Source: Candidatus Scalindua sp.
Lineage (GTDB): Bacteria > Planctomycetota > Brocadiia > Brocadiales > Scalinduaceae
Length of the DNA: 39,686 bases
NCBI GenBank assembly: GCA_021777035.1
Contig: JAIQZR010000023.1
Span: 1 to 39,686 of the forward strand
Direction of reading: 5' to 3'
Shown here: piece by piece, positions 2,266-37,224 of the stretch
Numbering within the stretch: the stretch's first letter is position 1
Layout of the letters: each line of letters opens with the position of its first letter
Made by a program: the position numbers and the translations under genes
The notes under the pieces: generated by a model
Seen by the model: only the letters and a program-made list of their open reading frames with translations
Databases searched by the model: none
What the model was told of the DNA's origin: nothing

Positions 2266-2580
2266 AACCTTCTCTTTTCGTAAAATATGTAATCTGTTTA
2301 AATGTTAAAATCTGTATTCTTTAGCGACAGGAGCTTTAGTATATGATGATTCCGCAGAGTGCAACGTGGTCAAAGTGATCTGTAACAGCTGTCTATTGTC
2401 TATAGCTGGTTCATTATAGGTGAGTTAGAATATTTTGCAAGGCAAAAAATATTCACCGCTGAGTAGAGAACAGACGCATAGCAAATAATATGGCCGAGTA
2501 CTTTGCAATAAGTCGCCCAGAACTGCATTTAATTCACCTTTATTGGAGTAGTAAAAGAAGCGTTCATGTTTTTCGGTTTT
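2266..2580. other. Intergenic stretch without a gene
   Basis: No coding frame is supported here. It contains the promoter/leader of the ABC-F gene at its left edge and a 9-bp inverted repeat (arms 2428-2436 and 2446-2454, GAATATTTT/AAAATATTC). The right edge runs into the 9-bp repeat array. Confidence 0.6.
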
Positions 2581-2670
2581 AACTGTTTTAACTGTTTTAA
2601 CTGTTTAAGCTGTTTAAGCTGTTTAAGCTGTTTAAGCCGTTTAAGCCGTTTAAGTCGGTTAAACCGTTAG
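2581..2670. repeat. Tandem 9-bp repeat array A, ten units
   Basis: Ten consecutive 9-mers drift gradually from AACTGTTTT through AGCTGTTTA and AGCCGTTTA to AACCGTTAG. The array ends 6 bp beyond the stop codon of the four-helix-bundle gene, so it lies in the 3' flank of that gene. The same unit recurs at 3194-3265 and 9798-9842. Confidence 0.9.
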
Positions 2671-2676
2671 ATAAAG

Positions 2677-3141
2677 TTACTCTTCCTTATTACTCTTTGC
2701 TTTTATCTGTTTCAGCATTTCATCCAGTTTTTCTTTTGAGCTTTTCTGTTTTGGCATCTTGTATTTTGTACCTTTGTATCCGCTGGTTTTCAGGTATTCC
2801 ATGAAGTTGTTAATCATGATAGAGAGCTTCTTACATTTGTCTATAATCTGGTCACACTTTATTTTGTCAATATAGCATTGATCCATGGCGACATACAACT
2901 GTGACCGTACTTCGCCACATGACGCTTTTGCAATTGATAGAAACTGTATAAATTCCTGATTGCCGCCTCTCTCATACCCCTCTGCAATGTTAGACATGAT
3001 TGAAACGGCTGCCCTTCTTATTTGATCACGCAGTCCGTAATCTTTTGCAAATCTACCGTCGTTACTTACATTGTAGACTTTATTAGCTAGTTCCCTTGAA
3101 AGCTTCCATACCTCTAAATCTTCAAAATATTTTGCACTCAT
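2677..3141 (-). CDS. Four-helix-bundle protein (23S rRNA intervening-sequence family)
   Basis: A 154-residue, almost wholly helical protein. The segments [39 protein letters not shown] and the following E-rich helix match the S23/IVS-type four-helix-bundle family first found in 23S rRNA intervening sequences and now known as free-standing genes. The C-terminal lysine-rich tail (after about residue 120) is extra. A GGAGGT ribosome site precedes the ATG at 3141. The gene is bracketed by two arrays of the same 9-bp repeat (2581-2670 and 3194-3265), which suggests gene and repeats may have moved together. The biochemical role of the family is unknown. Confidence 0.85.
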
Positions 3142-3193
3142 TGCCTTACCTCCATGTAATAAAGAACCGTTTTAAACTTATATAATAAAAGTA

Positions 3194-3265
3194 CTGTTCA
3201 AGCTGTTTAAGCTGTTTAAGCCGTTTAAGCCGTTTGAACAGTTTAAGCTGTTTAAACCGATTGAG
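3194..3265. repeat. Tandem 9-bp repeat array B, eight units
   Basis: Eight 9-mers of the type CTGTTTAAG, CCGTTTAAG, CCGTTTGAA, CAGTTTAAG. Because units occur in both senses, part of the array (CCGTTTGAACAG...CTGTTTAAACCG) can fold into an imperfect hairpin. It lies between the nuoN stop codon and the start of the four-helix-bundle gene and could act as a transcription end or processing site for the nuo transcript. Confidence 0.88.
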
Positions 3266-3297
3266 CCATTAAAATATGAGGACTACAATTGATATGT

Positions 3298-4749
3298 TTA
3301 ATACAAAACAGCAGATTGCTGGGCAAACGCAATTATCTTTGAAGGGAATATACCAAAATAGATAGTGCCGCAGATCGTAATTATAATGGCAAAAATGATC
3401 AGTGGCGAAATGGAAAGTGGTGTAAATTTACGTATCGGCTTTTTCATGTATATAACAACCGTTACTCTCAAGTAGTAATAAACTGATATTACACTGTTCA
3501 TCATACCAATAATGGCCAGTATGATAAATCCGGATTTGATAGCAGCACTGAAGATATAGAATTTTCCTATAAAGCCTATCAGTGGTGGTATACCCGCAAG
3601 TGAAAACATAAATATGCACATCGCGACTGCCAACAAAGGATGTTTATATCCAAGGCCGCTGAAGTCCTCAATATTGGCATTTTCTTCTCCTTTTCTGCCA
3701 AGTACGATAACTACCGCAAACGCGCCTAGATTCATAAATGTATACGCTAGCATGTAGAAGAGTAAACTCGCTATTCCAAATTCTCCTCCAACTATAATAG
3801 CTACAAGTGCGTATCCGGCATGCGCTATACTTGAATAGGCCAACATCCTTTTTATGTTTGTCTGCGAAATCGCCACAAGATTTCCAACTGTCATTGTAAG
3901 GACGGCTAGAACCCACAAGATTATCGACCATTTCTGCTCCAAGCCAGGCAAGGCCACTAAAAACACTCTCAGGAAGACGGCAAAAGCGGCCGCCTTTGGC
4001 CCTACTGACATAAAAGCCGTAACCGGCGTTGGAGAGCCTTCATAAACGTCAGGAGACCATTTATGGAATGGCACACATGCAATCTTAAACCCAAACCCAA
4101 CAATAAGCAGAGATGCACCAGCGATAATCATTGGATTTGTTAGTCCGGAATTATTAGCAATAAATGCGGCAATTCCCTTCAAGTTGGTTGTTCCGGTCGC
4201 TCCGTATAACAAGGCGATACCATAAAGAAGAAAACCGGTTACAAACGCACCAAGCAAGAAATATTTCAATGATGCCTCATTTGCACGCACCTTATCCCTC
4301 GTGAAGCCAGCCAACACATAAAGGGAAATGGACATTATCTCAAGGCCGAGGAAGACCGTGAGCAGATCAGCACCGCCCGCCATCAACATCATACCCACCG
4401 TGGCAAACAGTATCAGTGTGTAGTATTCGCCATAGTTCACACCCTCCTGTTTAATATAGTTATCGGACATAAGTATTACAATAGCCGTACTAAGCAGGAA
4501 TACCAGATTGAAGAAGACCGAAAAATTATCTACGACAAACATGTCACTGAATGAGTAGACGTTTTGGCCTATTTGAGCATAAGCAATTACTCCAGTAGCA
4601 ATAACAACGAGAAAACTTATGTATCCCATACTATTCTTGAATGTCTTCCTGCAGAATACATCAAGAAGCAGTATGAATATTGCCGCAACGGAGACACTCA
4701 CAATAGGCGCTATACTCTTTAAGTCAAATGGTGGAATAACTATTTCCAT
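3298..4749 (-). CDS. nuoN: NADH-quinone oxidoreductase subunit N
   Basis: Antiporter-like membrane subunit of complex I, 483 residues, about 14 hydrophobic helices. Typical family strings are visible: DLLTVFLGLEIMSISLYVL, KYFLLGAFVTGFLLYG, FKIACVPFHKWSPDVYEGSPTP and the lysine-bearing half-channel helices, including KRMLAYSSIAHAGY. It lies 3 bp from nuoM and is the last gene of the operon; the next gene downstream is the four-helix-bundle protein beyond a repeat array. Length matches the family. Confidence 0.97.
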   Translation of the reverse strand: MEIVIPPFDLKSIAPIVSVSVAAIFILLLDVFCRKTFKNSMGYISFLVVIATGVIAYAQIGQNVYSFSDMFVVDNFSVFFNLVFLLSTAIVILMSDNYIKQEGVNYGEYYTLILFATVGMMLMAGGADLLTVFLGLEIMSISLYVLAGFTRDKVRANEASLKYFLLGAFVTGFLLYGIALLYGATGTTNLKGIAAFIANNSGLTNPMIIAGASLLIVGFGFKIACVPFHKWSPDVYEGSPTPVTAFMSVGPKAAAFAVFLRVFLVALPGLEQKWSIILWVLAVLTMTVGNLVAISQTNIKRMLAYSSIAHAGYALVAIIVGGEFGIASLLFYMLAYTFMNLGAFAVVIVLGRKGEENANIEDFSGLGYKHPLLAVAMCIFMFSLAGIPPLIGFIGKFYIFSAAIKSGFIILAIIGMMNSVISVYYYLRVTVVIYMKKPIRKFTPLSISPLIIFAIIITICGTIYFGIFPSKIIAFAQQSAVLY

Positions 4750-9332: not shown

Positions 9333-9779
9333 TTATTTAGATTTATTCCTGGGTTTTTTCTTAACTTTTTTCTTAATTGGTACTAACAGTTTTTCTTTAT
9401 TAAAAATACGATCATTCGCGTTTCCTGTAGCCAGCTCATAGTCCTGCCGTAAGAATATAGCCTCCTCCGGACATACCTCCTCACAATACCCACAGAAAAT
9501 GCAACGGAACATATCAATTTCATAAGTCTCCGCATACCGGTTGCCATTTTTATCTTCGGCACCTTCAAGCTTAATACATTCAGAAGGACAAACTGTAGAA
9601 CAGAGCCCACAAGCGACACACTTCTCTTTGCCATCTTCGTCCCTCTGCAACTCATGCAAACCCCTGAAACGCGGATAAGGTGTCCACTTCTCATCAGGGT
9701 ATTGCATTGTAATCACTTTAGATGGGCTAAGAAAATGCTTTAATGTAAGCGCCAAACCTTGTAATAATGGTTTTATCAT
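9333..9779 (-). CDS. nuoI: NADH-quinone oxidoreductase subunit I (2 x [4Fe-4S])
   Basis: Peripheral ferredoxin-like subunit of 148 residues that carries clusters N6a and N6b. Both cysteine motifs are visible: CVACGLCSTVCP and CIFCGYCEEVCP. The lysine-rich C-terminus (KKKVKKKPRNKSK) is a local extension. A 61-bp gap containing a 22-bp inverted repeat separates it from nuoH. Confidence 0.97.
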   Translation of the reverse strand: MIKPLLQGLALTLKHFLSPSKVITMQYPDEKWTPYPRFRGLHELQRDEDGKEKCVACGLCSTVCPSECIKLEGAEDKNGNRYAETYEIDMFRCIFCGYCEEVCPEEAIFLRQDYELATGNANDRIFNKEKLLVPIKKKVKKKPRNKSK

Positions 9780-9797
9780 ATTTTAAGTTTTCTCAAG

Positions 9798-9842
9798 AAA
9801 CCGTTTGAACAGTTTAAGCGGCTTAAACTGTTTAAACGGTTT
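9798..9842. repeat. 22-bp inverted repeat built from the 9-bp unit, nuoH/nuoI junction
   Basis: Left arm 9798-9819 and right arm 9821-9842 are complementary with one mismatch and one base between them. Each arm is made of the same 9-mers as arrays A and B (CCGTTTGAA, CAGTTTAAG, CTGTTTAAA). The right arm touches the nuoH stop codon at 9841, so in mRNA a long stem would form directly after nuoH and before nuoI. No T-run follows on the minus strand, so attenuation or RNA processing is more plausible than full termination. Confidence 0.8.
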
Positions 9843-10830
9843 ATAAAAAAGTCATTACAACCCCTGTTATCAAAACATTTACTACCGCCACAGGAAGTAA
9901 AACCTTCCATGCAAACTGCATAAGTTGATCAATTCTGAACCTTGGGAAAGTGGATCTCAGCCATACGAAAAAGAATATGCACAGAGCCATTTTAATCAAG
10001 AACCAGACAACTGGCGGCAGGAACGGACCTCTCCAGCCACCAAAAAAGAACGTAACGCCAACTGCCGATACGGTAATAATATTTGCATATTCTGCCATGA
10101 AGAATAGCGCAAACTTCATGCTGCTATATTCTGTATGGAATCCTGAAACCAGTTCAGTCTCTGCTTCCGGTAAATCAAAAGGACATCTATTGGTCTCCGC
10201 TATGGCACTTATCGCGAACACGATAAAAGCTACAGGCTGCAACACAACAAACCACAAATGAGTTTGAGCATTAACCGTATCTACAAGGCTTAATGATTCC
10301 GTCATCATAATAACCCCTATCAAAGACAATCCCATTGAGAGTTCATAACTAATCATCTGAGCGGATGATCTCAACCCTCCCAGTAGTGAATACTTATTGT
10401 TAGATGACCAACCACCTAATAGGATACCATAAACACCAACAGAAGAAACGGCAAGGATAAACAGAATTCCTATGTTTACGTCTGCTATAACCATATCAAT
10501 ACTTACACCCATAATAGTGATAGTATCCCCAAAAGGAATAACTGCGACGGTTAACAGAGCAGGAATCATCGCTATTGCAGGCGATAATATAAACAAGATT
10601 TTACTGGCATTTGCCGGAATTATATCTTCTTTCAATATTAACTTAAGTCCATCCGCAATAGGCTGAAGCAAACCATGCCATCCCACTCTCATAGGCCCCA
10701 ACCGAATCTGCATATGGGCCATAACTTTCCTTTCAACCCAGATAAGATAGGCGATGACCAGCAACAGCACACCGATGACTATCCCTATCTTAATTGTCGA
10801 GAGTATGGCAAAAATAATTACATTTGACAT
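9841..10830 (-). CDS. nuoH: NADH-quinone oxidoreductase subunit H
   Basis: Membrane subunit of 329 residues that joins the two arms of complex I and forms much of the quinone chamber. Signature segments are RLGPMRVGWHGLLQPIADG, the acidic loop AISAIAETNRCPFDLPEAE, and FGGWRGPFLPP. About eight helices. The stop codon overlaps the inverted repeat at 9798-9842; upstream, a 104-bp gap to nuoG also carries repeat sequence. Confidence 0.97.
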   Translation of the reverse strand: MSNVIIFAILSTIKIGIVIGVLLLVIAYLIWVERKVMAHMQIRLGPMRVGWHGLLQPIADGLKLILKEDIIPANASKILFILSPAIAMIPALLTVAVIPFGDTITIMGVSIDMVIADVNIGILFILAVSSVGVYGILLGGWSSNNKYSLLGGLRSSAQMISYELSMGLSLIGVIMMTESLSLVDTVNAQTHLWFVVLQPVAFIVFAISAIAETNRCPFDLPEAETELVSGFHTEYSSMKFALFFMAEYANIITVSAVGVTFFFGGWRGPFLPPVVWFLIKMALCIFFFVWLRSTFPRFRIDQLMQFAWKVLLPVAVVNVLITGVVMTFL

Positions 10831-28175: not shown

Positions 28176-28442
28176 ATGGTTATTTGGGATGAAAGGAAGA
28201 ACATAAAACTAAAGCTAGAGAGAAATATTTCGTTCGAAACAGTTTCTGACATTATATTAAATAAACAGTACTTGGATATCTTAGATAACCCTTCGAGAGC
28301 AGACCAAAATGTATTTGTCATTGAACTTAACAAATACATCTATGCAGTTCCTTTTATAATCGACAAAGAATCAAACATAGTTCTTAAAACTATTTTCCCA
28401 AGCAGGAAATTAAATAAAAAATACGGAGGAAAGAATGATTAA
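28176..28442 (+). CDS. BrnT-like toxin
   Basis: 88 residues with the BrnT pattern in shortened form: VIWDERKNIKLKLERNISFE at the start and IVLKTIFPSRKLNKKY at the end. Similar short proteins are annotated as toxins next to ribbon-helix-helix partners. It overlaps the next gene by 8 bases. No ribosome site is present, in line with a leaderless transcript from the promoter at 28142. Confidence 0.75.
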   Translation: MVIWDERKNIKLKLERNISFETVSDIILNKQYLDILDNPSRADQNVFVIELNKYIYAVPFIIDKESNIVLKTIFPSRKLNKKYGGKND

Positions 28443-28749
28443 CAATAAATTAGATGATTTTGAAAAAAATATTGAAAAAAATATTTCAAATTTCAAAAAA
28501 GTGTCCTCAAGAAAACTCAAAAAAATTGAAGATATTATTCAAAAAGCTAACGAAAAGAAAAATATTAGTCTCAGGGTAAATAGCCAGGATTTAGAACAAA
28601 TAAAACTAAAAGCCGAACGTGAAGGAATTCCCTATCAAACCCTAATTTCAAGTGTTTTGCATAAGTTTGTAACTGATCAACTTATCGATCAAAAAAATAT
28701 TATTAAAAGCATTCAGTTGTTAAATAAACAAAAATTGATAACAAAATAA
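28435..28749 (+). CDS. Ribbon-helix-helix antitoxin, partner of the BrnT-like toxin
   Basis: 104 residues. A lysine-rich helical N-terminus (about 1-40) is followed by ISLRVNSQDLEQIKLKAEREGIPYQTLISSVLHKFV, a CopG-type ribbon-helix-helix. The GGAGGAAAG ribosome site lies inside the toxin gene. The stop codon lies in the left arm of attC site 4. Confidence 0.8.
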   Translation: MINNKLDDFEKNIEKNISNFKKVSSRKLKKIEDIIQKANEKKNISLRVNSQDLEQIKLKAEREGIPYQTLISSVLHKFVTDQLIDQKNIIKSIQLLNKQKLITK

Positions 28750-28795
28750 TTCAGGTGACGCTAAAAAAGCAGCGCACCTGATTATTCCGTTATTG
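28736..28795 (+). other. attC site 4, short 60-bp form
   Basis: R'' TGATAAC (28736-28742) and R' GTTATTG (28789-28795) flank a long stem: left AATAAT-T-CAGGTG-A-CGCT (28745-28762), right AGCGCACCTGATTATT (28771-28786), loop of 8. The only unpaired stem bases are a T and an A, both on the left arm, exactly the attC pattern of one-sided extrahelical bases. A terminator is the alternative reading, but no T-run follows. Confidence 0.75.
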
Positions 28796-28823
28796 CTTTT
28801 AGCTTAATGGATTCAAATATAAC

Positions 28824-28852
28824 TTGACAACAAGTATCCACTTGGATACATT
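28824..28852 (+). promoter_or_regulatory. Promoter with operator, HigBA-like module
   Basis: TTGACA (28824-28829), 17-bp spacer, TACATT (28847-28852). An inverted repeat GTATCC-ACTT-GGATAC (28834-28849) fills the spacer and touches the -10. The start codon at 28859 coincides with the expected +1. Confidence 0.68.
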
Positions 28853-28858
28853 CGATGA

Positions 28859-29158
28859 ATGAATACTATATTACGCACAAAGGTCTTTGATGTATGGCTT
28901 TTAAAACTCAAGGATGCTCGTGGTAAAGCTCGTATTATCGAAAGAATTCGTTCTGCTGAGAGAGGTAATTTCGGGGATTGTGAATCTATCGGTAACGGTG
29001 TTTCTGAAATGCGTATTCACTTTGGTCCGGGGTATCGGGTGTATTTAGCACGTAGAGGTGAAGTTGTCTTTGTGCTACTTTGTGGAGGATCAAAACGAGG
29101 TCAACAACGTGATATTACTAAGGCTAAGGAAATGATCAAGATAATAAGAGAGGAGTAA
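28859..29158 (+). CDS. RelE/HigB-type toxin (addiction-module killer)
   Basis: 99 residues of the phage-Gp49-like/RelE superfamily: FDVWLLKLKDARGKARIIERI, then GVSEMRIHFGPGYRVYLARRG and the C-terminal CGGSKRGQQRDITKAKEM. This is the standard killer protein paired with an HTH antidote encoded downstream. Toxin-first order is normal for this group. No ribosome site is visible, consistent with a leaderless mRNA. Confidence 0.9.
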   Translation: MNTILRTKVFDVWLLKLKDARGKARIIERIRSAERGNFGDCESIGNGVSEMRIHFGPGYRVYLARRGEVVFVLLCGGSKRGQQRDITKAKEMIKIIREE

Positions 29159-29161
29159 AAC

Positions 29162-29470
29162 GTGAAAGATATTAATGAATTGGGCCTTGCGGCGTTCGAT
29201 GCTAGCGATTATTTAGATAGTGAGGAAACTATTGCTGAATACTTAACTGTTGCATTGCAAAACCCAGATCCAGATGTTTTTTTGGTTGCAGTACGTGATG
29301 TCGCAAAGGCTCAAGGTATATCTAAAGTGGCCACATGCACAGGACTTGGACGAGAAAGCTTATATAAAACACTTAAACCAGGCTCACATCCACGCTTTGA
29401 TACTGTACGTCGCTTACTTAATGGCTTGGGGGTAAGACTTGATGTCACACCTTCACATACTCATGTCTGA
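29162..29470 (+). CDS. HigA-type antitoxin (addiction-module antidote, HTH)
   Basis: 102 residues starting with GTG. The N-terminal FDASDYLDSEETIAEYLTVAL and the HTH KAQGISKVATCTGLGRESLYKTL are characteristic of the antidote family; the usual DNA target would be the inverted repeat at 28834-28849. It follows the toxin by 3 bp. Confidence 0.9.
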   Translation: MKDINELGLAAFDASDYLDSEETIAEYLTVALQNPDPDVFLVAVRDVAKAQGISKVATCTGLGRESLYKTLKPGSHPRFDTVRRLLNGLGVRLDVTPSHTHV

Positions 29471-29488
29471 TAAATTGAATTTGTAATT

Positions 29489-29772
29489 ATGGAGGCCTAC
29501 GGATTTGCTGATAAAAAATTAGGGAATGAAGTGTTTGAACAATTTTTCAAATTCATCGAGCGAGAAGCTGATGATGACCGGCTATATGTTAAGAAAGCCG
29601 TAAATTGGGCGCTTCTAAATATCGGTAAGAGAAATATTGACTTACATAAAAGTGCCGGTCGAATTAGCCAGCCATATATGACTCTGTTGAATCCAGTTCA
29701 GCAAAATGGATTGCTAAAAATGCACTTAGTGAACTTAAAAAATCTGGCGTCAATATTTTGGATTATCCCAGG
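29489..29772 (+). pseudogene. DNA alkylation repair (AlkD-like) C-terminal remnant, two frameshifts
   Basis: The first frame gives FFKFIEREADDDRLYVKKAVNWALLNIGKRNIDLHK, the HEAT-repeat core of AlkD-like glycosylases. Near 29657 the meaningful frame moves to VELASHI and near 29677 to YDSVESSSAKWIAKNALSELKKSGVNILDYPR, which completes the family C-terminus. The N-terminal two thirds are missing. The cassette gene is therefore broken by deletion and at least two small indels. Confidence 0.75.
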
Positions 29773-29957
29773 TATATATACAGGCCAATGGCGAACTACC
29801 TAATAATCCTGATTTTAGTTCATATTGTATTGATATAATTGCATGTTTAATAATAGGATTTATTTTTGGTATATTGAATTGGAATAGAAATGAAAAAGAA
29901 TACTTATTAAGGAAAGACGAATTAACAAGGTCAGAAGATGATCTGAATAAGCAATAG
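29772..29957 (+). pseudogene. Fragment of an unknown small membrane protein
   Basis: An open stretch without a start codon reads ANGELPNNPDFSSYCIDIIACLIIGFIFGILNW followed by a charged tail and a TAG at 29955. It has one clear membrane helix. It is joined directly to the AlkD-like remnant with no attC between them, which points to a deletion. No family recognised. Confidence 0.35.
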
Positions 29958-29999
29958 AAGCAAGAAGAATGTAGATTTTAATCTTGATTTTTAATTTTT

Positions 30000-30125
30000 T
30001 TCTAACAAGTCACTTGAGCCAACCCCTCTGTCATTTGAGATTCTATTATTCTCAGGTTCTTTGCTTATTTTATTTTTATTCATTGTTTTATACGCCATAC
30101 GGCGCCCCTCACTTTGACGTTAGCT
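30000..30125 (+). other. attC site 5
   Basis: R'' TTCTAAC (30000-30006), L'' GAGCCAACCCC, and R' GTTAGCT (30119-30125). The left arm and centre closely match sites 2 and 6. The L' arm (GGCGCCCCTCAC) has diverged and pairs poorly with L''. Confidence 0.72.
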
Positions 30126-30135
30126 GAAAAATATC

Positions 30136-30167
30136 TTGCTTAATCCTGAGTGATATTATAGTATCAC
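30136..30167 (+). promoter_or_regulatory. Promoter with operator, Phd/RelE module
   Basis: TTGCTT (30136-30141), 17-bp spacer, TAGTAT (30159-30164). The inverted repeat GTGATA-TTATAG-TATCAC (30150-30167) covers the -10. ATG at 30172 is 7 bases past the -10, again close to the expected +1. It begins 10 bp after the attC R' core. Confidence 0.55.
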
Positions 30168-30171
30168 TTTC

Positions 30172-30429
30172 ATGAAGATTGAACTTGTCACAACACTAAA
30201 ACGTCAAGCGACAAAAATACTGGCCGAACTACATGAGTCGAAAGAACCAGTTCTAATTACAGAACACGGTAAACCATCAGCATACCTTGTTGATGTTGAA
30301 GACTTTGAGTTTATGCAACGCCGAATGCATATTCTTGAAGGTTTAGCTAGAGGTGAAACAGCTATTTTAGAAAATCGCATTTATAGTCAAGCAGAAGCCA
30401 AAGAGAAAATGAGCAAATGGATCAAGTAA
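30172..30429 (+). CDS. Phd/YefM-type antitoxin
   Basis: 85 residues: TTLKRQATKILAELHESKEPVLITEHGKPSAYLVDVEDFE is the standard Phd/YefM fold, followed by an acidic toxin-binding tail. Represses its own operon together with the toxin. Overlaps the toxin gene by 13 bases. Confidence 0.92.
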   Translation: MKIELVTTLKRQATKILAELHESKEPVLITEHGKPSAYLVDVEDFEFMQRRMHILEGLARGETAILENRIYSQAEAKEKMSKWIK

Positions 30430-30734
30430 TCTGGACTGAGCCTGCTTTATGTGACCTTGATGAAATTGCAGAGTATATTGCGCTTGATAAAGTTGGCGCT
30501 GCACAACGTCTAGTCCAAAATGTGTTTGATAGCGTAGAACGCCTTGAGACGTTTCCAGAATCTGGACGTATACCTCCAGAATTGGAAAGTTCGTTGTATC
30601 GTGAAATTATTGTTGGCCCATGCCGTATCTTTTATCGTTGTACTCAGCAAAAGGTTTACGTATTACATGTTATGCGTGGTGAGAGGCAACTACGAAAATA
30701 TTTACTTAATGAACGATCACAAGAAAATAGCTAA
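30417..30734 (+). CDS. RelE/ParE-type toxin
   Basis: 105 residues. VIWTEPALCDLDEIAEYIALDK, the ERLETFPESGR turn and YREIIVGPCRIFYRC are typical of ParE/RelE toxins. Whether it poisons gyrase (ParE) or ribosome-bound mRNA (RelE) cannot be decided from sequence. The stop codon TAA is supplied by the attC R'' core CTAAC. Confidence 0.92.
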   Translation: MDQVIWTEPALCDLDEIAEYIALDKVGAAQRLVQNVFDSVERLETFPESGRIPPELESSLYREIIVGPCRIFYRCTQQKVYVLHVMRGERQLRKYLLNERSQENS

Positions 30735-30805
30735 CAAACCAGTAGAGCCAACCCCTCTGTCATCTGCGATTCGATTATTTCCAGACTCTTTGCTTATATT
30801 ATTTT
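30729..30805 (+). other. attC site 6, left half only
   Basis: R'' AGCTAAC (30729-30735) and L'' AGAGCCAACCCC, then the centre matches site 5 as far as TTGCTTATATTATTTTTCATTG. After about 30808 the expected L' and R' are missing and coding sequence of a methyltransferase remnant begins, so a deletion joined the two. A lone GTTATAA at 31020-31026 might be the surviving R'. Confidence 0.7.
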
Positions 30806-30806
30806 T

Positions 30807-31017
30807 CATTGCCTCCCAGGCAAATTATCAGAGAAACTAGTCGTATTAGATAATGTGAATCATTTATTGTCAGAAACCGGTATTATATTCGGAGCTACAA
30901 TATTATCACATGGAGTAAATAAATAAAGGACTCATGGCCACTAAGTTGGCGTCGATTTATAATAAGAAAGGTATATTTAGTAATTCCTTTATAATAATAA
31001 CTATGCTGCTTACATAA
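30807..31017 (+). pseudogene. SAM-dependent methyltransferase remnant, 5' deleted and frameshifted
   Basis: From 30807 one frame reads HCLPGKLSEKLVVLDN and then LSETGIIFGATILSHGVNK to a stop at 30924. This fits the post-motif region of class I methyltransferases (HCLPG ... GVLFGATIL). A shifted frame from 30934 to the stop at 31015 reads MATKLASIYNKKGIFSN, which continues the same family. The start of the gene is lost at the junction with the attC half site. Confidence 0.6.
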
Positions 31018-36453: not shown

Positions 36454-37224
36454 TCATTCATCACTCTCTTCATCATTCTCTTCATCACTCTCTTCATCAC
36501 TCTCTTCATCACTCTCTTCATCACTCTCTTCATCACTCTGCATTAAATATTTGCTATTACATTCAGGGCATACACCATGAGTAAAATCTGCTTTTGTATG
36601 TTTGTGAATATACTCTTCTACCCGATACCAATATCCTTTATCATCACGAATGTTTTTGCACCACGCACATATCGGGATAAGACCTTGAAGTTTTTTAATT
36701 TTATTATTAGCTTTTTGAAGATTGACTACAAGTTTTTCTCTTTTTGCTTCAATTACTTTTCTTTTGGTTATATTGATAAATGAGGCCATCATTCCAACTA
36801 CTAAACCTTTGTGGTTTCTAATACACGATGAAGATACTTCAACAAAAAATTTAGTGCCATCTTTGTGAAGAGCAATAAACTCTTCAGTTTCTCCATCAAC
36901 TGCGTCAATGATTGAATGGATATCAGAAAATGTTTTAATTTCTTTTGAAGCAAAAAGATTAGATGCGTTATGTCCCAAGACTTCATTTTTATCAATAAAT
37001 TCAAACATTCTCAAAAAAGATGTATTAACATACTTAATAATCCCTTCACGGTCAGTAATAATAATTCCACTTATATTAGATTCAATCGCATCAAAAACAA
37101 TATTGAAAACATCATTGGTAGAATCAACATCAACGATATTTTCAACCAACACGTTTATATCTTGAGTGAACCGGGTTTGTGCTGTACCAAATCCTTGATT
37201 AATATGTTTCTTTAACTTTGCCAT
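36454..37224 (-). CDS. PAS-domain sensor with four-cysteine ribbon and acidic repeat tail
   Basis: 256 residues. An N-terminal helical part (1-40), one PAS domain (about 45-155: SGIIITDREGIIKYVN, FIALHKDGTKFFVEVS, ASFINITKRK), a coiled coil (about 155-180), then LQGLIPICAWCKNIRDDKGYW...GVCPEC with C186, C189, C219 and C222, a probable zinc-binding module seen at the end of many PAS and response-regulator proteins. There is no kinase, GGDEF or HTH output domain. The last 27 residues are SDEE repeats encoded by a minisatellite. Function as a signalling adaptor is an inference. Confidence 0.8.
   Translation of the reverse strand: MAKLKKHINQGFGTAQTRFTQDINVLVENIVDVDSTNDVFNIVFDAIESNISGIIITDREGIIKYVNTSFLRMFEFIDKNEVLGHNASNLFASKEIKTFSDIHSIIDAVDGETEEFIALHKDGTKFFVEVSSSCIRNHKGLVVGMMASFINITKRKVIEAKREKLVVNLQKANNKIKKLQGLIPICAWCKNIRDDKGYWYRVEEYIHKHTKADFTHGVCPECNSKYLMQSDEESDEESDEESDEESDEENDEESDE
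36462..36540. repeat. 12-bp minisatellite coding for the SDEE tail
   Basis: Six full units of CACTCTCTTCAT (one with CATT) and a partial seventh. Being a multiple of three, changes in copy number would lengthen or shorten the acidic tail of the PAS protein without a frameshift. Confidence 0.92.

Follow-up and report, generated by a model that had tools for sequence, protein, structure and literature searches.

Proteins of the PF05635 family are very widespread and of unknown function, and they are annotated as "23S rRNA-intervening sequence protein", "S23 ribosomal protein" or "four helix bundle protein". The closest described setting of such a gene is the intervening sequence (IVS) in the 23S rRNA of Coxiella. 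According to the accessible part of PMC4990558, two to three tandem heptamers (GACAGAT) are located just upstream of the S23p ORF in this IVS, which has 28-bp complementary ends and undergoes cleavage by RNase III. The same part of that text cites old proposals that intervening sequences are transposition remnants or are mobile, and describes an S23p family protein as a homopentamer. Eighteen such genes have also been recorded in cas loci of several types (PMC3936711, accessible part). A search of the open-access literature found arrays beside PF05635 genes described only for the Coxiella IVS.

Here we analyze a PF05635 gene within a stretch of 39,686 nucleotides from Candidatus Scalindua sp. 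(contig JAIQZR010000023.1), referred to below as the window. We consider it likely that positions 2576-3267 are one copy of a compact mobile cassette, in which a PF05635 four-helix-bundle gene is accompanied by short tandem arrays acting as the element ends. This reading is drawn from the association of gene and arrays, from the matched units private to each copy, from junctions that are filled, decayed, array-only or empty, and from the IS66-type ends and target duplications in the genome of one relative, G015. The bracketing by arrays, the private matched units, the tie between unit and protein subfamily, the presence/absence polymorphism and the multicopy spread in one genome are all observed in this work. 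Should the majority of PF05635 genes belong to mobile, array-ended cassettes, the family would gain a biology, and its presence in unrelated operons, for example between cas10/cmr2 and cmr3, would be explained. Cassette insertion would in the same way explain the 18 genes in cas loci, and an origin would be given for some orphan heptamer arrays.

Gene, Arrays and Neighbors at the Window Locus

The features of the locus are as follows.

2494-2528, minus strand: broken gene start (MQFWATYCKVLG...), directly downstream of the cassette; longer in relatives (L196/L197 comparison)
2576-2665: downstream array, ten 9-bp units GTTTTAACT/GTTTAAGCT/GTTTAAGCC; tandem score reached by 0 of 200 dinucleotide shuffles
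2677-3141, minus strand: four-helix-bundle (S23/IVP) gene, 154 aa, pI 9.2; PF05635 E 1.9e-37, TIGR02436 E 2.9e-35
3196-3267: upstream array, eight 9-bp units; tandem score reached by 0 of 200 dinucleotide shuffles
3298-4749, minus strand: nuoN-like gene (PF00361), just upstream of the cassette
9799-9843: solo 9-mer array, five units, in the nuo operon with nuoH on one side and a 4Fe-4S ORF on the other

About 30 bp separate the upstream array, at its outer edge, from the stop codon of nuoN. On the downstream side, the broken small gene and a gene for an ABC-F ATPase are on the same strand as the cassette gene and the nuoN-like gene. The initial annotation had counted ten units after the gene and eight before it, and both counts hold when the units are read out and compared to shuffles; as it also stated, there is no 9-mer array within the gene body 2677-3141. 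The further occurrence of the unit inside the nuo operon was likewise recovered, as the five units at 9799-9843.

On the plus strand, GTTTAAGCY is present in both arms, which makes the two arms mainly direct repeats (score of 94 direct and 38 inverted, with 0 of 200 shuffles reaching either value). The arms are also able to pair with each other, as had been claimed, because the 9-bp unit is near-palindromic. The inverted score and the RNA duplex exceed those of all shuffles, the duplex having an energy of -47.3 kcal/mol compared to -33.2 ± 4.4 kcal/mol for shuffled arms (0 of 100 as strong). An Rfam scan found no match to rRNA or any other Rfam family within the window. The copy thus lies outside rRNA and is therefore not classed as a 23S IVS.

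Two other features of the window are noted. A 12-bp repeat, TTCATCACTCTC, is present seven times at 36457-36539, at the 3' end of a PAS-domain ORF. The run of small ORFs at 28176-30840 is a toxin-antitoxin island that includes a CopG-type antitoxin, an HI1420-type antidote and a ParE-type toxin.

The 9-mer in Its Own Genome

Searching the genome for a 26-base pattern of three units, with up to 3 mismatches allowed, yielded 57 + 74 matches on the two strands versus 0 + 1 for the reversed-pattern control. Such a genome search had been suggested in the initial annotation. The matches listed are distributed over seven contigs (C120, which is the window, C126, C148, C154, C157, C66 and C190); among these listed matches, a PF05635 gene is present only on the window contig. 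The other PF05635 copies of the genome have an 8-mer array (L008) or 7-mer arrays (L006, L007, L009, L012 and L013). The proposed link between the 9-mer and four-helix-bundle genes stands for the subfamily of the window protein, in which the period is 9 in six of six loci, but not for the other copies, which use other units, and the 9-mer also occurs solo. Since the unit varies from copy to copy, the 9-mer was rejected as a universal partner of PF05635 genes. The architecture, and not the 9-mer, is the rule.

A long solo array of the window 9-mer, with about 28 units, was found on contig C126 of the same genome (L046, 15015-15263). It begins right after a stop codon, and the contig has no PF05635 gene.

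Association of Arrays with PF05635 Genes

Loci were collected from three sources, namely the own genome together with relatives (family present in 19 of 20 genomes), 84,980 species genomes scanned across phyla (574 confirmed loci, of which the best 80 were kept) and 149 genomes within the phylum (family present in 77). It should be mentioned that the cross-phylum loci were drawn with a pair of short peptide patterns, with a bias toward one subfamily. After removal of near-duplicates and cut loci, the usable set consisted of 131 PF05635 loci, which are non-redundant and represent many phyla. Those dropped were L011 (a partial copy close to the end of a contig), L069 (truncated by a contig end), L080 (identical in sequence to L055) and 8 near-duplicates; the contig-end fragments L014 and L015 never entered. 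L139 and L183 have less than 100 bp of one flank in this test.

Arrays with a period of 6-10 bp (p ≤ 0.01 versus shuffles) were found upstream of the gene in 97 of the 131 loci and downstream in 88; at least one side has such an array in 108 loci, and both sides have one in 77. An inverted match between the arms was significant in 83 of 131 (p ≤ 0.01), and 19 of 131 passed neither the array test nor the inverted-arm test. Period 7 is dominant (101 flanks), followed by period 8 (28) and period 9 (16). The arrays are concentrated at the gene: 100-bp segments at 0-100 bp from it contain an array in 80/132 cases upstream and 73/132 downstream, those at 100-200 bp in 16/129 and 12/130, and those from 200 bp to 4.7 kb in 0-6%. 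Inside the gene body, the proportion is 0.7% of 408 segments.

One alternative is that the arrays are ordinary slippage-prone intergenic repeats, with the gene as a harmless operon passenger that lies beside them by chance. Solo arrays without the gene do exist, in the own genome as well, and heptamer arrays without a gene have been published (PMC4679880, accessible part). In a gap-based test (p ≤ 0.02), 90 of 124 gaps touching the gene passed, and so did 68 of 209 gaps not touching it. This gap-based control is contaminated or weak and is given here as contrary evidence; arrays are split by the simple ORF caller used, and there are also solo arrays, both of which may contribute to the figure. 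The distance profile and a ParE control were carried out instead. The steep fall of array density with distance from the gene is at odds with a chance neighborhood. So is the comparison to ParE (PF05016) genes, for which 30 loci from the same 149-genome draw gave 0/30 upstream, 1/30 downstream and 1/30 with inverted arms, against 19/24, 16/25 and 22/24 for PF05635. Sixty further PF05635 copies, picked from the loci listed and favoring multicopy genomes, gave 36/60, 36/60 and 44/60 in these three tests. With the match between the two arms of a copy and the tie of the unit to the protein subfamily, both described below, also counting against it, the chance-passenger explanation appears highly improbable.

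The same architecture is present in isolates and complete plasmids, namely plasmid C of Trichormus variabilis ATCC 29413 and Picosynechococcus sp. PCC 7003, and is therefore no assembly artefact. The copy in the latter (L401, 1495-1851; NZ_CP016476.1) is a PF05635 cassette with 8-mer arrays, located in a type III-B operon with cas10/cmr2 on one side and cmr3 on the other. Searches with P0001 found no relative in viral contigs and no match in phage records.

It is noted that a group of array-less PF05635 genes in Acidobacteria (L100, L120, L125, L127, L128, L133 and L156) has an upstream ORF in antisense orientation, at most about 500 aa long, for which the L120 copy gave no Pfam or NCBIfam match. 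This unit has a fixed right end, GGGATATCAAGGGCGAAGCCCTTGCCTAGTTAG, with flanks that diverge immediately beyond it, and is possibly a new transposon type. An insertion in rRNA was rejected for this group after 4 of its 7 loci were scanned and gave no Rfam match, and the group is regarded as a separate unit.

Matched Arms and Private Units

The inverted arm match is stronger than the direct one in 96 of the 131 loci and weaker in 30. When both arms were above threshold (62 loci), the period was common to the two arms in 58. The similarity of the units between the arms of these loci is 0.83 in inverted orientation versus 0.50 in direct orientation, with 49 loci closer inverted and 6 closer direct. 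Compared to the downstream arms of all 131 loci, the own downstream arm is the best partner in 47 and ranks third or better in 72. When only copies of one genome are compared, the own arm is the best in 9/10 copies of G030, 10/10 of G031, 6/6 of G138 and 4/5 of G106, and in only 4/20 copies of G015, where recent copies share units. The own arm being the best match in most copies, the unit is therefore private to each copy. That two separated arms keep an identical private repeat in each copy is a new puzzle.

The similarity of units rises with the identity of the proteins (rho 0.33, 0/499 permutations), and the correlation is retained after removal of 42 locus pairs that share a neighbor protein (rho 0.32, 0/499 permutations). 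In the window subfamily, which has a longer C-terminus, the six loci compared, all with period 9, are L005, L056, L057, L073, L165 and L178. They come from more than one genus and from different junctions, a long flank being common only to L005 and L073. In this subfamily, direct arm matches are stronger than inverted ones and the unit is near-palindromic.

Presence and Absence at Orthologous Junctions

Orthologous junctions were compared within one genus, with orientations and empty sites read by eye from the printed sequence. The nuoN junction is filled in G000, the own genome, and in G004; it has only a short array in G007 and other contents elsewhere. The L007 junction is filled in G000, G010 retains a remnant of the 3'-end of the gene and the right array, and the cassette is absent in the other readable genomes. 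The L006 junction is filled in G000 and G009, has remnants of the right arm in G004 and G011, and is empty in G005 and G002.

The L008 junction displays the widest range of states. In G000 it holds an 8-mer cassette; in G008, G009 and G001, the gene present encodes a different protein and the arrays are 7-mers. G003 has a pair of 8-mer arrays with no gene, and short array remnants are left in G002 and G011. The junction is empty in G010 and G007, and other inserts are found in G004 and G012. This junction took two unrelated cassettes in different species.

At the nuoH junction, the solo 9-mer array of the window corresponds to a long 9-mer array in G010, to inverted 8-mer arms with no gene between them in G004 and G012, to other inserts in G002 and G005, and to a bare gap of 27-36 bp in G003, G001, G009 and G011. 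With at least three unrelated short inserts as well as bare gaps in ten genomes of the genus, this junction (window 9779-9841; L217-L226) is an insertion hot spot.

A separate observation concerns G004, in which a small gene flanked by inverted CCCCTCCTTaAGAAGGAGGGG repeats (L356) occupies the junction of the L006 cassette, upstream of the gene that follows this cassette. The small gene presumably resembles DUF559 nucleases. L356 is possibly a second kind of cassette made of a gene with inverted repeats.

IS66-Type Ends and Target Duplications in G015

IS66 elements typically start with GTAA and duplicate 8 bp of target. The genome G015 has two cassette families at different sites, and the homology among copies stops just outside the arrays, beside the gene. 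The eight cassettes of family 1 have the ends GTAACTATTCAGnRTA on both sides, except that the eighth copy, L257, has no right end. Among the seven two-ended copies, an exact 8-bp target duplication is present in five (L250, L261, L263, L264 and L269), the duplication of L253 matches at 7 of 8 bp, and none is visible for L262. These duplications were read by eye, and those of L263 and L264 were also found independently in a scan of 183 loci. G015 further contains a 1.7-kb element with family-1 ends and a PF03050 IS66 transposase, together with gene-less elements of 194 bp and more that consist of family-1 ends and heptamers. The end pattern has 78 + 85 matches in this genome versus 26 + 21 for the reversed control.

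These findings have to be weighed against the possibility that all cassettes are non-autonomous passengers of known insertion-sequence families, moved by DDE transposases and with ends too worn to be seen. The ends shared with the IS66 transposon, the 8-bp target duplications and the gene-less MITEs of G015 are what such passengers would leave. Outside G015, however, neither a target duplication nor a fixed terminal motif was detected: in the 183-locus scan, duplications of 8 bp occur at 7 loci versus 4.9 expected, and G015-type fixed ends were not found beyond this genome. Array ends with a different unit in each copy are at odds with a sequence-specific transposase, and the IS66 transposon of G015 has no heptamers beside its own ends when inspected by eye. 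We therefore regard this explanation as unlikely for the cassettes as a whole. As to the 183-locus scan, its excess of 6-bp duplications was rejected as target duplication, the signal coming from palindromes inside the array units.

Possible Pairing of the Arms in the Operon Transcript

A third explanation takes the arrays as an RNA device like that of 23S rRNA intervening sequences, in which the arms would pair in the operon transcript, RNase III would excise the cassette, and selection would favor insertion without harm. The inverted arms are in line with this, as is a duplex with z ≤ -4 in 42 of the 131 loci, and the Coxiella IVS is indeed cut by RNase III (PMC4990558, accessible part). Among array-bearing loci, both neighbors are co-directional with the cassette gene in 67, both are opposed in 5 and the orientation is mixed in 17. 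The excess of sense insertions also fits such a device, but ordinary operon genes are likewise co-directional. Across 88 loci, 157 G-U and 170 A-C arm mismatches were counted; the two are equally common, so that selection acting on the sense RNA is not apparent, and G-U asymmetry was set aside as evidence for an RNA stem. The sense duplex is not clearly stronger than the antisense duplex either (34 versus 20 of 54 strong loci, p 0.13). We consider it doubtful that the arrays are in essence an RNA device.

Proposed Explanation

We favor the mobile cassette. The initial annotation had suggested that the gene plus repeats may be a small selfish unit, and this idea is now supported well beyond the window by the association, the matched arms, the presence and absence at junctions and the spread in G015. 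Counting against it are the mainly direct arms of the window, the arrays that lack the gene, the gap-based comparison, the 19 loci that passed neither test, and the negative results for a general target duplication and for a sense-RNA signature. In the reading we favor, each copy carries its own 7-9-bp unit, nearly equal in both arms, usually inverted and mainly direct in the palindromic 9-mer subfamily. The cassette fills the gap between co-directional genes, beginning at the upstream stop codon; the distance from the outer edge of the upstream array to this codon has a median of 2 bp and is ≤20 bp in 55 of 69 loci. From this position, the host operon would read through the cassette with its genes unbroken. 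Decay of the cassette leaves gene-less array pairs and solo arrays.

The protein is basic (pI 9.2) and probably pentameric, given that pentamers are seen in the crystal structure 2GSC of the family. It most likely binds its own arrays as the element ends, and could thereby hold the two ends together; the main support for this predicted binding is the tie between unit and protein subfamily. The enzymes of recombination and movement would come from the host or from other elements, as may be the case with the IS66-type ends in G015, so that movement is probably carried out in trans. An RNA stage is possible, in which paired arms in the transcript of the operon would be cleaved in the manner of 23S rRNA intervening sequences.

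Comparison with Known Systems

The TAACTGA heptamer repeats of Beggiatoaceae, Cyanobacteria and Bacteroidetes (PMC4679880, accessible part) are similar to the arrays described here in being intergenic tandem heptamers that adjoin start codons, and TAACTGA-like units are found beside the PF05635 gene at L070. However, the terms four helix, S23 and 23S are absent from that text. The BrickBuilt minisatellite MITE of Porphyromonas (PMC4596501, accessible part) also has tandem repeats within an intergenic MITE, but its unit is 23 bp, and four helix and S23 do not appear in that part of the text.

MITEs and non-autonomous IS66-type elements share with the cassettes a short length, an intergenic location, inverted ends, multiple copies and gene-less derivatives, and the 8-bp duplications and IS66 ends of G015 add to the likeness. 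In contrast to them, the cassettes carry a conserved gene and generally have no fixed terminal repeat or target duplication.

Avd of diversity-generating retroelements belongs to the same fold family, and some PF05635 copies match the Avd model NF033474 weakly (31.6 and 35.8 bits; cut-off 80). The window protein has no match to this NCBIfam model at E ≤ 1, and no reverse transcriptase is present among the five window proteins that were profile-scanned.

The closest relative is the 23S rRNA IVS with an S23p ORF, as in Coxiella and Leptospira, which resembles the cassettes in its protein family, sporadic distribution and size of about 430 bp, and whose complementary ends correspond to the inverted arms of most other loci, the window arms being mainly direct but able to pair. 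It differs in that the window cassette is placed between protein genes (nuoN and the ABC-F ATPase), with arrays on both sides and a unit of its own in each copy. The complementary ends of the Coxiella IVS and the heptamers before its ORF support a common origin with the cassettes. We put forward, as a tentative view, that the cassettes are a distinct class of bacterial mobile elements, whose ends would be private tandem arrays instead of fixed sequences, kept matched by and recognized through their own four-helix-bundle protein, and of which the 23S rRNA intervening sequences, and possibly Avd of diversity-generating retroelements, would be specialized offshoots. Should the mobile-cassette reading hold for most PF05635 copies, the nature of 23S rRNA intervening sequences, a thirty-year-old question, becomes directly testable.
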